This document shows, piece by piece, positions 26,076 through 54,992 of a stretch of DNA of 64,000 nucleotides. Position 1 is the first letter of the stretch; each line of letters starts with the position of its first letter. Source of the DNA: Thiothrix subterranea (GTDB lineage Bacteria > Pseudomonadota > Gammaproteobacteria > Thiotrichales > Thiotrichaceae); NCBI RefSeq assembly GCF_016772315.1, contig NZ_CP053482.1:2480001-2544000 (forward strand). The letters are read 5' to 3'. Under the pieces are notes generated by a model. That model was not told the origin of the DNA, did not search any database, and saw only the letters and a program-made list of their open reading frames with translations. The translations under genes were made by a program, and so were the position numbers.

Positions 26076-26980
26076 TGATGGATAACGCACGGGTACAGAT
26101 TTTACTGTCCACCTGGAACGGTGAGCGTTGGCTGCCGGAGTTATTGGCTTCGCTGGAAAAACAGACGTTTCAAGATTGGCAATTGCTGGTTCGGGATGAT
26201 GGCTCGACCGACCAAACGTTGCGCATTTTATTGAAATGGCAAGCAGCACACCCCGATAAGTTGGCGGGTTTGTTGCTGGATGGCAGTCATTTGGGGTGCA
26301 AGCTGAGTTTTAGCCGTTTGGTGGAAGCCAGCACCGCGCCGTGTCTGATGTTTTGTGATCAGGATGATGTGTGGTTTCCCGAAAAAGTGGAACTGCAATA
26401 CACCGCGTTGCGGCGTTTGGAAGGGCAGTACGGTGAGGCAACGCCGCTGTTGGTGCATTCGGATTTGGTGGTGGTGGATGAGGCACGCGCCATACAAGCG
26501 GTATCGTTTTGGGATTACCGCGATTTTGAGGTGGCGCAGCGCAAGCAGGCGTATTTGCTGAACAATGTAGTGACAGGGTGCGCCACGGCATTTAATCGCG
26601 CCGCAGCAGAGTTGGCGTTTCCAGTGCCATTGTATGCGCTGGAGCATGATCGCTGGTTGGCGTTGGTGTGTGCGTGGTTTGGGCAAATACAGGCATTGCC
26701 GCACCCTTTATTGCTGTATCGCCAGCATGATGAGAATGCGATCGGGGCGGAACCTGCCACTGTCAATGGCTTAAGTGCACGGGTGGATGGTTGGAGTCAG
26801 CAAGCGGAAGTGTTCTTGCACCGTTTTGGCGAGCGGCTGAATGCCGAGGATTTCAAATTGGTGACGGCAGTGGCGGGGCTACGCTATTTGCACGGTTGGA
26901 AACGGCGGCAACACATTTTACACCATCGGCTGTTCAAACCGGGTGTATTGAATAATGTGGCGCTGCTGCTATTTGCATAA
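26072..26980 (+). CDS. Family 2 glycosyltransferase (rhamnosyltransferase-like)
   Basis: 302-residue GT-A glycosyltransferase. It begins VQILLSTWNGERWLPELLAS and has VRDDGSTDQT and CDQDDVWFPEKV (the CDQDD motif of the WcaA/RfbG-type subgroup), then YLLNNVVTGCATAFNRAAAE and the acid-base region YALEHDRWLALVCAWFG. No membrane helix is seen, so it should act at the cytoplasmic face. A GTG at 26072 and ATGs at 26075 and 26078 are all possible starts; the GTG overlaps the previous stop. Confidence 0.87.
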   Translation: MMMDNARVQILLSTWNGERWLPELLASLEKQTFQDWQLLVRDDGSTDQTLRILLKWQAAHPDKLAGLLLDGSHLGCKLSFSRLVEASTAPCLMFCDQDDVWFPEKVELQYTALRRLEGQYGEATPLLVHSDLVVVDEARAIQAVSFWDYRDFEVAQRKQAYLLNNVVTGCATAFNRAAAELAFPVPLYALEHDRWLALVCAWFGQIQALPHPLLLYRQHDENAIGAEPATVNGLSARVDGWSQQAEVFLHRFGERLNAEDFKLVTAVAGLRYLHGWKRRQHILHHRLFKPGVLNNVALLLFA

Positions 26981-26996
26981 CAACAGGGGAGATACC

Positions 26997-28079
26997 ATGA
27001 CAACAATAATTCAGCGCCCTGATGTGGCAGTGATCGTGTTAACTCGCAATGCGGGGCGTTTGTGGCCGGAATGGATTAAGGCGCTTCAGCACCAAACCGT
27101 GCAGGCCGGGCGTTATTTGGTGATTGATTCACTCTCAGAAGACCACACGGCTGAACTGGCTGCGGCAGCAGGTTTGGAAGTGCAGCGGATTCATCCGCGC
27201 GACTTTAGTCACGGTGGCACGCGCCAGTTGGCGACGGAATTGTGCCCTGATGCGGAATTTCTGGTGTATTTGACGCAAGACGCCATCCTCAAACAAGCGG
27301 ATTCGCTGGAACAATTGCTCAAGCACGCCGCTGACGATAGCCATGTGGGCATGGTGTACGGGCGGCATTTACCGCGTGCGGATGCGGATCATTTAGAACG
27401 TCATGCGCGTGGCTTCACTTACCCCGCTACGTCTTCGGTGCGTGACCGGGAAAGTTTTAAAACTTTGGGGTATCGGGCGGCGTTTGCCTCGGATGTATAC
27501 GCAGTGTATCGGGCGAGTGCGTTGCGCAGTATCGGTGGCTTTCCCGAACACATTATTGTGAGTGAAGACAGTTATGTGGCGGCGCGGTTGTTGCTGGCGG
27601 GGTGGAAAACGGTGTATTCGGCGGAAAGTACCGTGGAACATTCGCACCGTTATTCGTTGGTGCAGATTTTCCGGCGTTATTTTGACGTGGGAGTTTTCCA
27701 TGCGTCGGAACAGCCCTTGATGCAAGCGGTGGGTGCGCCCGATCGTGAGGCGGGTACGTATGTGCGTTCGCTGATTCAGTATTTATATGTGCGTCAGAAA
27801 GGGTTATTGCCGCTGGCGGCGTTGCAGACCTTCGTGAAATTGATGGGTTTCCGTTTGGGGCAGCGTTACCAGCAATTACCCGCCAGTATTTGCCGGATGA
27901 TTAGCGTGCAACGTGCGTATTGGAGGAGAGAAGAGGGCGTATGCAAGACGCCCCTACGGGTAGGAATGGGTAGGGGCGTCTTGCATACGCCCTCTTTGGG
28001 TGCGCTTAAGCACAAAAAGTGTGATAAAACAGCAAAAAGTTTGTTACAGAATCTTGACAGAGAACAGCTTGAATATTAG
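26997..28079 (+). CDS. Family 2 glycosyltransferase (rhamnosyltransferase-like) with an altered C-terminus
   Basis: 360 residues from ATG 26997, with ribosome site GGGGAGA. GT-A motifs: VAVIVLTRNAGRLWPEWIKA, VIDSLSEDHT, YLTQDAILKQADSL (acidic metal site in TQDA) and FASDVYAVYRASALRSIGGF with VSEDSYVAARLLLAGW. The family core ends near YQQLPASICRMISVQRAYWR. The last 49 residues include 22 encoded by a 66-bp palindrome (27931-27996) and then KKCDKTAKSLLQNLDREQLE. They look non-homologous, as if the repeat replaced or extended the original end. Last gene of the glycan cluster; a terminator follows at 28141. Confidence 0.86.
   Translation: MTTIIQRPDVAVIVLTRNAGRLWPEWIKALQHQTVQAGRYLVIDSLSEDHTAELAAAAGLEVQRIHPRDFSHGGTRQLATELCPDAEFLVYLTQDAILKQADSLEQLLKHAADDSHVGMVYGRHLPRADADHLERHARGFTYPATSSVRDRESFKTLGYRAAFASDVYAVYRASALRSIGGFPEHIIVSEDSYVAARLLLAGWKTVYSAESTVEHSHRYSLVQIFRRYFDVGVFHASEQPLMQAVGAPDREAGTYVRSLIQYLYVRQKGLLPLAALQTFVKLMGFRLGQRYQQLPASICRMISVQRAYWRREEGVCKTPLRVGMGRGVLHTPSLGALKHKKCDKTAKSLLQNLDREQLEY
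27931..27996. repeat. Palindromic element C, in frame near the end of a glycosyltransferase gene
   Basis: 66-bp element with perfect 27-bp inverted arms (27931-27957 and 27970-27996) and a 12-nt loop. Outer part GAGGGCG, variable 9-mer TATGCAAGA, inner part CGCCCCTACGGG; the right arm is the exact complement. Element D in argS shares the outer and inner parts but has a different, also self-matching, 9-mer. Confidence 0.92.
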
Positions 28080-28140
28080 TATATTCATATATTGTTCATT
28101 ACCGATTTAACACTCCTCCATCCTCCTTTGGTGGTAATTG

Positions 28141-28167
28141 CGCGGCTCACACGGGCCGCGTTTTTTT
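28141..28167 (+). terminator. Rho-independent terminator after the polysaccharide cluster
   Basis: Stem CGCGGC/GCCGCG (28141-28146 and 28155-28160) with an 8-nt loop followed by seven T. It separates the glycan cluster from the rplM leader. The rest of 28080-28385 holds no gene I can support; an L13-operon leader structure may lie there but I cannot define one. Confidence 0.85.
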
Positions 28168-28385
28168 ATTTTGAATACGGTAGTTTTGGTCGCTGGTTTT
28201 TTCATGTGCTTGTCTCTTTATTGTTGCCTCTCCCTTGGTGTGAGGCATTTTTTTGTCGAGAGTTAAGTGCTAAACACTTGAGAATTTCCAGCATTTCCCC
28301 TAGAATGCCGCGTTTCTTCGTTCCCCCACCTTCTCAAGGTTTGGGGCGGATCGGCAAAACAGATTTAAGAAGTGGATTGAGCAAG

Positions 28386-28814
28386 ATGAAAACATTCAGT
28401 GCAAAGCCAGCTGAGGTAAAACGCGATTGGTTCGTCGTTGATGCCGAAGGCAAGGCGCTAGGCCGTTTGGCCTCCGAAGTTGCCCGGCGTTTGCGTGGCA
28501 AGCACAAGCCAGAATATACCCCGCACGTTGATACTGGCGACTATATCGTTATTATCAATGCTGACAAAGTTGGTATCACTGGTAACAAAGCCAAAGACAA
28601 AACTTACTATCACCATACCGGCTATATCGGTAATATGCGTGCTTTCACCTTTGAAAAAATGCAACAGCGTGCACCGGGTCGAGTCATTGAACTCGCTGTC
28701 AAAGGCATGTTGCCAAAAAATCCATTGGGTCGCGCCATGTACCGTAAGATGAAAATTTACGCTGGCACAGAACATAACCACCAAGCACAGCAGCCACAAG
28801 CGCTGGACTTTTGA
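28386..28814 (+). CDS. rplM: 50S ribosomal protein L13
   Basis: 142-residue ribosomal protein at the usual length for the family. Characteristic blocks: [60 protein letters not shown], and [20 protein letters not shown]. The ATG at 28386 matches the normal L13 N-terminus. The open frame extends upstream to 28092, but that part translates as unrelated hydrophobic sequence over the terminator and was rejected. It is followed by rpsI after 17 bp in the conserved L13-S9 operon. Confidence 0.98.
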
Positions 28815-53131: not shown

Positions 53132-53231
53132 CCTACTAATCCTTCAATCGTGAGAATCCTCTTGCAGAAAGTGGATTCTACCCCGCAACCCGCCTAAAAT
53201 CCCCCTTTTGCCCACACCCGAAAAGAGTCTG

Positions 53232-54992
53232 ATGAATATTCGCCAACTGCTTGATGACCGCATTACCGCCGCGCTGCACACACTCGGCGCACCTGACACC
53301 GTGACCGCCATTGTGAAACCTTCCGCCCGCCCCGAATTCGGCGACTACCAAGCCAACGGCGTAATGGCAGCCGCCAAGCAGTTGAAAACCAACCCGCGAG
53401 AACTCGCCACCCGATTGCTGGAAACGCTGGATTTGTCCGATCTCGCCGACAAACTCGAAGTCGCAGGCCCCGGTTTTATCAATATCTATTTGAAAAATAA
53501 GTGGTTATCAGAAGCATTGGGAGGGCGAATGCCATTCGCCCCTACGGGGGATGGTAGGGGCGAATGGCATTCGCCCTCTTCACAAACCATCGTGGTCGAT
53601 TATTCGGGGCCGAATCTCGCCAAGGAAATGCACGTCGGGCATTTGCGCTCCACCATCATCGGTGATGCTGTTGCCCGCGTCCTCGAATTCCAGGGACACA
53701 AGGTTATTCGCCAAAACCACGTCGGCGATTGGGGAACACAGTTCGGAATGCTGATCGCGCACATGGTCAGCCTTACCGACAAAACCCGTGGGGTGAGCGA
53801 AGTCGAACCCCAACTCGCCGACCTCGAAACCTTCTACCGCGAAGCCAAACAGCGTTTCGATGCCGAAACCGACTTTGCCAACACCGCCCGCGATTACGTG
53901 GTGAAACTGCAAGCCGGTGACGCAGAATGCCATGGCTTGTGGCAGCAATTCATCGACATTTCCTTGCACCATTGCGAAGAGGTTTATGAGCGTTTGGGCG
54001 TGTCCCTGAGCCGTGCGGATGTGATGCCGGAAAGTGCCTACAACGCTGATTTAGCCAATATTGTTAGCGAGTTGCAGGTGCAAGGCTTGCTGGTGGAAAA
54101 TCAGGGCGCACAATGCGCGTTTCTCGATGAATTCAAAAACAAAGACGGCAGCATTACGCCGATCATTGTGCAGAAAACCGGCGGCGGCTATTTGTATGCG
54201 ACCACTGACCTTGCGGCATTGCGTTACCGTAGCGGGGTGCTGAACATTGACCGTGCTTTGTATTTCACCGATGCCCGCCAAGCGTTGCATTTCCAGCAAG
54301 TGTTCCTGTTGGCACGTAAAGCCGGATTTGTGCGCGAAGGCGTGGCGCTCGAACACATGCCGTTCGGCAACATGCAGGGCGAAGATGGCAAACCGTTCAA
54401 AACCCGTACTGGCGGCACGGTCAAGTTGGTGGATTTGTTGGTGGAGGCGGAAGAACGGGCGTTCACCCTCGTCACCGAAAAGAACCCGGAATTGGGTGAG
54501 GCGGAACGCCATGAGATTGCGCGTACTGTTGGCATTGGCGCGGTCAAATACGCCGACCTGTCCAAAAACCGCAACTCGGATTATATTTTTAACTGGGAAA
54601 CTATGCTGAGTTTTGAGGGCAATACTGCGCCGTATTTGCAGTATGCGTATGCGCGGATTAAGAGCATTTTCCGTCGCTCAGGTGTGGATGCGGAGGCGAT
54701 TAGCTCCTCCATTTCGCTGCATGAAATCGCTGAACGTACCTTGGCGATGAAGTTGCTGCAATTCACTGAGGCGACGGATAGCGTGGCGAAAGAGGGTTTG
54801 CCGAACCATCTTTGCACGTATTTGTATGAGTTGGCGGGTAACTTCATGAGCTTCTATGAAGCTTGCCCGATCTTGAAAGACGGTGTGGCGGAGGACGTGC
54901 GTAACAGCCGTTTGCAGTTGGCGAATTTGACGGCGCAAACCCTGCAAACTGGCTTGGGTTTGCTGGGGATTGGGGTGTTGGAGCGGATGTGA
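53232..54992 (+). CDS. argS: Arginyl-tRNA synthetase with an in-frame palindromic insert
   Basis: 586-residue class I synthetase. N-terminal tRNA D-loop-binding (Add-1) domain (1-95), catalytic HIGH-type motif in [38 protein letters not shown], the arginine-specific KMSK substitute region [20 protein letters not shown], and the anticodon domain with [20 protein letters not shown]. Residues about 97-116 ([20 protein letters not shown]) are encoded by palindromic element D and lie where E. coli ArgRS has a short surface linker before QTIVVDYS. The product should still fold. Start ATG 53232 gives the family N-terminus [11 protein letters not shown]. Confidence 0.95.
53521..53578. repeat. Palindromic element D, in frame inside argS
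   Basis: 58-bp element with perfect 25-bp arms (53521-53545 and 53554-53578) and an 8-nt loop. Outer GAGGGCG, variable 9-mer AATGCCATT, inner CGCCCCTACGGG. The outer and inner parts are the same as in element C at 27931-27996. Confidence 0.92.

Follow-up and report, generated by a model that had tools for sequence, protein, structure and literature searches.

The palindromic elements of Thiothrix described here resemble several known systems. GTAG-tagged REPs (Di Nocera et al. 2013, PMC3733652) likewise consist of a GTAG foot and a short palindrome. According to the available parts of that paper, they fall into subfamilies with complementary stem changes and form homo- and heterodimers, arranged tail-to-tail with the GTAG inside, as do the Thiothrix elements. 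Some of them lie within genes, tRNA synthetase genes included, as does one of our elements, which is present in argS. Thiothrix does not appear in the main text of that paper. In REPINs, as presented in the accessible text of Bertels and Rainey 2011 (PMC3116915), two inverted REPs and a spacer can together form one hairpin, an architecture also found here. Finally, the REP class of a syntenic RAYT can differ between related strains while new variants spread, a change named REP orthoswitch (Nunvar et al. 2013, PMC3686654), and this is shared by Thiothrix; on the mechanism of the type change, the available sections of that study can only speculate.

Two such elements are present in the window, the whole stretch of 64,000 nucleotides that was analysed (C1:2480001-2544000 of the 4.08 Mb genome G000). 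Element C occupies window positions 27931-27996 (66 nt; perfect arms of 27 bp, loop of 12 nt), and element D positions 53521-53578 (58 nt; perfect arms of 25 bp, loop of 8 nt); in the predicted RNA fold of 53520-53579, D has 26 pairs, the outermost being G-T. Both are near-perfect inverted repeats with a predicted folding energy of about -56 kcal/mol for C, and likewise for D. Each consists of two inverted 23-nt units, GTAG-GGGCG-N9-CGCCC, whose GTAG feet face a short spacer. The left arm of C (27931-27957, minus strand, core 27935-27957) is a REP unit reading GTAG-GGGCG-TCTTGCATA-CGCCCTCTT, the right arm (27970-27996, plus strand, core 27970-27992) is a REP unit with the same stem TCTTGCATA, and the spacer between them (27958-27969) is GGGTAGGAATGG, identical in G013 and 0.83 identical in G014. 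In D, the left arm (53520-53545, minus strand, core 53523-53545) reads GTAG-GGGCG-AATGGCATT-CGCCCTC and is followed by the spacer GGGGGATG (53546-53553; GGAAGATG in G002 and GGAGGATG in G011) and by the right REP unit (53554-53579, plus strand, core 53554-53576).

The initial annotation of this DNA had pointed out that C and D have the GAGGGCG and CGCCCCTACGGG parts in common and that their 9-mers, TATGCAAGA and AATGCCATT respectively, have the exact complement on the opposite arm, and both observations are borne out. It omitted that a single arm forms a small hairpin by itself, composed of the GTAG foot and GGGCG-N9-CGCCC. The complementarity therefore exists at two levels, within a unit and between the two units. 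An Rfam scan of positions 27500-28500, around element C, yielded sub-threshold matches only (the best, mir-641, at 36.9 bits against a gathering threshold of 100), which we rejected as matches of shape. C and D are GTAG-tagged REP dimers of Thiothrix, REPIN/BIME-like and arranged tail-to-tail.

Facing feet (CGCCCCTAC-N2..30-GTAGGGGCG) are found at 27 places in G000, against 0 for a control pattern, and the single unit GTAGGGGCG-N3..14-CGCCC has 94 matches (49+45) across the chromosome, against 1 for its control; four fully palindromic places are counted on both strands among these 94. Together with the folding energies, these counts rule out that C and D are chance occurrences. They are the only two dimers in the window but not in the genome, contrary to a possibility that the initial annotation had allowed for. 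The family thus combines the tetranucleotide and short palindrome of GTAG REPs with high copy number and dispersal, although 94 copies are at the low end for REPs, which usually number more than 100 per genome in the available text of PMC2817692. The C/D-type dimers have the two inverted REPs, the spacer and the potential to form one hairpin that characterize REPINs. Exact facing feet pairs are present in 12 of 16 Thiothrix genomes; in an order-wide draw of 60 genomes they were found in 12, and in none of the 44 non-Thiothrix genomes (listed as the same family). Of the 398 genomes in a phylum sample, 2 contain the exact hairpin core GGGCGTATTGCATACGCCC, G000 being one of them. A text search of the literature for the letters GTAGGGGCG gave unrelated papers among the matches listed. 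Two further observations concern G000. Stems like GGTTCGCGAACC form full palindromes there, terminated by GTAG on either side (GGTTCATGAACC and GGTTCACGAACC). Locus L046 (G000:C1:2213653-2221690) has three REP dimers at intervals of about 4 kb, and two of these are close to the 3' end of a large ORF (1058 aa in one case, 941 aa in the other), an arrangement suggestive of tandemly repeated genes.

Both elements of the window are coding. A glycosyltransferase-like ORF of 374 aa (26955-28079, plus strand) runs in frame through element C, which is near the gene's end, and continues to a C-terminal tail that is conserved in seven genomes, its own and six relatives; this ORF gives a weak MftF-like match (51 bits against a cut-off of 280). 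Element D is located in frame in argS, encoding arginine--tRNA ligase (53232-54992, plus strand; the listed ORF is 53208-54992, with an ATG at 53232), in the linker that follows the N-terminal part of ArgS, and the TIGR00456 match (568 bits) extends in one stretch across it. Among the best 80 of at least 590 candidates, the named sequences closest to this argS belong to Thiothrix. Neither element contains a stop in this frame, and the frame is kept in the compared orthologs. Therefore, the protein does constrain both elements, and the earlier view that selection acts on the hairpin "rather than on the protein" is not supported. GTAG REPs are typically extragenic for the most part. According to a mechanical rule by which some frames may be spurious, 31 of 56 G000 elements are inside an open frame with a minimum length of 120 codons; the 56 also include elements with related stems, ATTCATGAAT being one. 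When 17 of the proteins, containing 18 of the 31 elements, were scanned, a single NCBIfam stretch was found to span nine elements, in mfd (two), xdhC, polA, nadE, maf, pgl, cobB and argS. The two elements of mfd are GTAG hairpins, one of the ATTCATGAAT stem type (loci L003, L025, L043 and L056 are G000 loci of the in-frame set). Repair and replication genes are among the REP-carrying genes in other species too, as reported in the accessible part of PMC3733652.

The ArgS linker (window 53480-53600; loci L177-L193) is a hotspot, at which the same in-frame spot holds different palindrome families depending on the species: the C/D REP family, GTAGGTCGGGCTTCAGCCCGAC, CCTCCCCT..AGGGGAGG and the CTTCGGCTCCGCTCAG type. 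In a survey of 16 Thiothrix genomes, with the two G010 copies outside the parsed set, dimers of the C/D family, with three stem types among them, were found in G000, G013, G002 and G011, and a single unit in G014, G005 and G006. The linkers of G004 and G009 contain the other GTAG hairpin, GTAGGTCGGGCTTCAGCCCGAC, which is also the type found beside a G004 RAYT; those of G012, G007 and G008 the CCTCCCCT..AGGGGAGG palindrome; and those of G001 and G015 another palindrome, while none was evident in G003. Hence, at least three other palindrome families fill the linker of this essential gene in sister species. G001 and G010 have two argS copies each; over the argS segments from which the tree was built, one G010 copy equals that of Ca. 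T. singaporensis, whose linker is of the CCTCCC type. In G000, locus L194 (G000:C1:1451387-1451914) is a second, partial argS-like stretch, 88% identical and corresponding to residues 418-586.

With relaxed criteria, 157 dimers were counted in the fetched loci; they come from 11 genomes, G000 contributing 34. Removal of 8 rows with poor feet or boxes left a clean set of 149 (32 in G000). As the loci were fetched around exact matches (for most relatives, the pattern required exact feet and left the stems free), decayed dimers elsewhere are missed, and part of the 39 exact dimers of G011 is included. The arms are identical in 123 of the 149 clean dimers, and in 23 of the 32 of G000. Hence, the expectation that N9 pairs are always complementary fails for 9 clean G000 dimers. 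Among the 26 clean dimers with unequal arms, both unit hairpins are intact in 14, one in 9 and none in 3. We then compared these numbers with shuffles in which arms were permuted among the dimers of one genome. For G000, 23 of 34 dimers have equal arms compared to 5.1 expected (maximum 11 in 5000 shuffles), and equal arms are likewise above shuffling in G013 (26/37) and G011 (20/20). The excess is weak in G002, G008 and G014, where about 4, 1 and 5% of the shuffles, respectively, reach the observed value, and there is little or none in G005 (10 observed, 10.0 expected) and G006 (13 and 12.1); the stems of the latter two genomes are nearly all alike, so equal arms prove nothing there. Where stems vary, N9 pairs are thus equal far above chance, though not always. 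The regularity within the unit is stronger: of 308 arms, 285 have palindromic bases at all three inner pairs. Element C is the sole equal-armed clean dimer (1 of 123) with a non-palindromic unit; selection on units therefore cannot account for its matching arms.

To compare orthologous loci, flanks on both sides were used in BLAST searches, which gave 158 pairs in 40 groups (group 3 includes one spurious G004 row). The orthologs of element C (group 9) form a series. G002, G006, G008 and G009 have TATTGCATA in both units; in G013 and G014 the left unit has TATTGCATA and the right one TCTTGCATA, with further foot mutations; and in G000 both units have TCTTGCATA. The arms of C are thus unequal in these two sister genomes and equal in the genome of the window. 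Between G000 and G013 the flanks align and the spacer is identical. The TCTTGCATA mutation breaks the unit hairpin. Judged from these sequences, the simplest history would be a mutation in the right arm that was then copied to the left arm in G000. Besides selection on the hairpin, the initial annotation had considered a process that copies the middle and thereby rewrites the two arms; the comparison of G013 and G014 with G000 supports this second option. Other loci show single-base changes in both arms with a spacer that is kept or similar: TATTGTATA in G000 versus TATTGCATA in G013 at L001, and ACCGGCTGGT versus ACCGGCGGGT at L054; at each of the two loci, one of two sister genomes is changed. 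In the argS tree, G002, G009, G000, G013 and G014 form one clade (100/98), the order within which is without support. As the tree does not resolve G000, G013 and G014, the direction of change is given by parsimony. Copying is slow, since 9 of the 32 clean G000 dimers are unequal, several of them common to G000 and G013.

Spacers can also be inverted: in 5 of the 40 groups, orthologs whose flanks have the same orientation carry spacers that are reverse complements of each other. The identity of the inverted spacer is 1.0 over 13 nt in groups 5 and 28, over 10 nt in group 11 (G013 versus G014) and over 9 nt in group 36 (G005 versus G006), and 0.93 over 14 nt in group 24. Template switching at inverted repeats has reportedly been described by Ripley and by Lovett. 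Arm homogenization and spacer inversion are its signature in the available portions of PMC8604942 and PMC8794818. This quasi-palindrome signature is found in the C series, at L001 and L054, and in the five groups with an inverted spacer, and polymerase template switching would account for both the copying of arms and the inversion of spacers. Inter-arm copying gives the pattern of matched arms without selection, and the earlier proposal of selection on the hairpin as its cause is therefore not supported.

Larger changes are also seen. In 13 rows both arms are of the ACCGG, ACTGG or AATGG kind in G000 (or G013), and TATTGCATA is present twice in at least one ortholog. These rows represent 12 or 13 loci, because L046:5653 of G000 and L241:2822 of G013 share their spacer and are either one locus or paralogs. 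The mean spacer identity over the 13 rows is 0.70, compared to 0.49 when spacers are shuffled among loci, and none of 20000 shuffles was as high; we relied on this locus-level permutation and not on a rank test on the 37 switched pairs, since these pairs are non-independent. Seven loci have at least one switched ortholog at a spacer identity of 0.75 or more, and in 7 of the 13 rows the mean identity is 0.66 or less. For example, the spacer GAAGACCGTCCCCT is identical in L009 and G014 across the stem change, and CGGG..AATATTC is kept in L012 and G005/G006, while the L012 spacer differs in G013 and G014. Recombination through the flanks was weighed as another possible source of the change; flank identity at the switched loci is 77-98%, except for one flank at 68%. 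Half-changed dimers exist too: L290 of G014 has ACCGGCGGT / TATTGCATA where G000 and G013 have ACCGGCGGT / ACCGGCTGT, and L253 of G013 has AATGGCATT / TATTGCATA where G000 has AATGGCATT / AATGGCGTT and G014 TATTGCATA twice. Many ortholog differences exchange the greater part of the 9-mer, and for this reason we reject single-step compensation under selection as the main cause. A stepwise TAT-AAT-ACT-ACC walk, by mutation and copying, may also give a stem change, and units of these kinds exist.

The initial annotation had suggested looking for an associated nuclease or transposase. A probable RAYT gene with REPs of this family on either side is indeed present about 82 kb outside the window, as an ORF of 190 aa (G000:C1:2626042-2626614, minus strand). 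Its match to NF047646, the profile for the REP-associated tyrosine transposase, is split in two by a REP in the frame and reaches 69.5 bits (E 2.7e-19), less than the cut-off of 80; PF01797 matches with 21.7 bits (cut-off 23), and the best PDB match is TnpA-REP 4er8 (E 0.0047). The protein contains PNHFHAI, which we take to be the HUH motif. Starting about 28 bp 5' of its start there are three tandem ACCGGCTGGT REPs and one inverted ACCGGTTGGT, and beyond its stop there is a dimer, so that ACCGGCTGGT REPs are located on both sides of the gene, the arrangement of a REP-RAYT (REPtron) system. The degenerate REP within the RAYT frame (L047:5288-5312; G000:C1:2626287-2626311) lies between the PNHFH motif and the C-terminal part, and syntenic RAYT copies differ at this position. 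With scores below both curated cut-offs and a REP in its own frame, the G000 RAYT may be inactive. A PF01797 profile search of G000 had no matches, and among the 30 loci of a genus-wide PF01797 search, GTAGGGGC or GCCCCTAC words were present only in L154 and L171; L154 is a G004 RAYT locus with REPs of another stem (L325). The notion of an orphan family without transposase was dropped when the RAYT was found through the translated ORFs around the elements and NF047646.

NF047646 matches are present in 13 of the 16 Thiothrix genomes, in three relatives over the cut-off, and some are IS200-like. GTAG hairpins surround 10 of the 18 RAYT or IS200-like loci scanned, mostly with one stem type per locus: ACCGGCTGGT in G000, G013 and G015, ACCGGCGGT at G011 C101, TATTGCATA in G005, CGGTTCGCGAACCG at the second G013 copy, CAATTCATGAATTG at G011 C30, GTCGGGCTTCAGCCCGAC at G004 C5:413955 (with CAGACC-type hairpins farther out), and the CAGACC type at the second G004 locus; two stem types are present at one RAYT locus in G003 (L332) and in G004 (L325). 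At the second G013 RAYT (L331, G013:C2:3783910), a stretch of about 2.2 kb contains about eight REPs of the GGTTCGCGAACC type. The RAYTs of G000, G013, G015 and G011 C101 are syntenic and 72-96% identical; that of G005 is 53-57% identical to this set, and within the stretch compared its flanks do not resemble those of the G000 locus. Arms of the ACCGG type make up 41 of 64 in G000, 41 of 68 in G013, 3 of 22 in G014, 2 of 22 in G002, 0 of 24 in G005 and 6 of 40 in G011. G014 and G002 have no NF047646 match, or a weak IS200-like one only. The G011 RAYT is flanked by ACCGGCGGT, and yet only 6 of its 40 fetched arms are of the ACCGG type, so a resident RAYT does not dictate the stem. Stem type therefore follows the resident RAYT in part only. 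The stems of D (AATGGCATT) and C (TCTTGCATA) flank none of the 18 RAYT loci scanned.

Our preferred reading, to which we assign a probability of about 0.72, is that REP dimers were spread by a RAYT, that their arms are equalized by template switching, and that their stems change type in place. The C/D family would first have been spread by the RAYT, a single-strand HUH/tyrosine transposase, with C and D landing in frame in genes. When one arm mutates, template switching at the hairpin, or quasi-palindrome correction, would transfer the mutation to the second arm, and the same process would invert spacers. Whole stems would change type in place, the two arms in succession; other REP copies would be the source of the new type, and the RAYT would probably assist. 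If there is selection, its targets would be the reading frame and the 23-nt unit hairpin, the latter in its role as RAYT substrate, but not the long hairpin. That the long hairpin is itself selected as an RNA or DNA structure, such that its stem of 25-27 bp matters and mutations in one arm are compensated in the other, seems to us very improbable. Such selection would explain the far more than random equality of arms in G000, G013 and G011 and the very stable predicted folds of C and D, but unequal arms are present in 26 of all 149 clean dimers (9 of 32 in G000), 14 of which keep both unit hairpins, and partnerless single units persist at argS in G014, G005 and G006. Moreover, many ortholog differences span most of the 9-mer (TATTGCATA versus ACCGGCGGT), unlike single compensations, and the 9-mer length can change (9 versus 10) between orthologs.

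Alternatively, different dimers might have inserted independently at the same preferred sites in each species, with arms already equal upon arrival as a unit. Spacers that are on the whole kept across the stem change, as between L009 and G014, half-changed dimers at the same loci, and the change in C with aligned flanks and an identical spacer between G000 and G013 make this unlikely, even though the different palindrome families in the ArgS linker demonstrate that sites are reusable, 7 of the 13 rows have rather dissimilar spacers, and REP doublets have been proposed as the replicative unit in the available text of PMC3116915. The transposase itself might instead exchange cassettes, cutting at both feet and swapping in its cognate REP arm by arm; equal arms and spacer inversions would then result from its strand-transfer chemistry and not from polymerase template switching. 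In vitro, TnpA-REP proteins do cleave REP DNA on either side when it is single-stranded (accessible part of PMC8266576), most of the 10 of 18 RAYT or IS200-like loci with GTAG hairpins have one stem type each, and ACCGG-type arms are common in the ACCGGCTGGT-RAYT carriers G000 and G013 and rare in G014 and G002. However, G011 has such a RAYT while its stems are mostly other, AATGGCATT and TCTTGCATA match none of the RAYTs scanned, and the stem copied between the arms of C breaks the unit hairpin. We consider such an exchange rather doubtful. As the most novel interpretation, we tentatively raise the possibility, somewhat short of an even chance, that an active RAYT of another specificity causes resident dimers to be overwritten arm by arm. 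This might include dimers in essential genes such as argS, and the spacer and flanks would stay while the repeat population changes type unmoved; if true, this would supply the step that the orthoswitch has so far lacked.

The kind of element reported here is known, and its evolutionary behaviour is new. The element class, the dimers, the compensated subfamilies, the intragenic copies and the RAYT link are already in print, as the available parts of PMC3733652, PMC3116915, PMC3686654 and PMC8266576 show. In-place rewriting of resident dimers and inversion of REP-dimer spacers were not found among the matches listed from the open-access literature, with most subscription journals outside it, nor was a paper joining template switching to REP dimers. 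The new part is the in-place stem replacement, which follows the resident RAYT only partly and for which the mechanism given above is a putative one. Paired changes in hairpins are often read as structural selection; the C ortholog series points to inter-arm copying, and covariation in such repeats should be taken with caution as proof of function. The 40 orthologous dimer groups of Thiothrix, some with intermediates, are a resource with which the question of how REP populations change type becomes testable.

Compared with the known systems, the Thiothrix elements differ from the GTAG-tagged REPs in the accessible text of PMC3733652 in the apparently large share present in ORFs and in the stem replacement and spacer inversion at orthologous loci, which are absent there. 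REPINs are read as favouring hairpin capacity in the text of PMC3116915 available, whereas the C series reflects arm-to-arm copying; the Pseudomonas REPINs reported there are extragenic, whereas C and D are intragenic. Rickettsia palindromic elements are palindromic repeats in protein genes, and the Thiothrix elements are likewise in frame; however, those of R. conorii have a CGTC end (available part of PMC3733652), which is not found in the Thiothrix elements, with their GTAG end and RAYT. Template switching, as covered in the accessible portions of PMC8604942 and PMC8794818, also combines arm homogenization with spacer inversion, coding DNA included, but was reported for yeast genes and RNA genes, whereas the Thiothrix case concerns REP dimers. 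Finally, in the orthoswitch model, as far as the available sections of PMC3686654 go, old REPs stay and decay, with partial replacement allowed, whereas the Thiothrix dimers, with spacer and flanks retained, appear to be rewritten in place.
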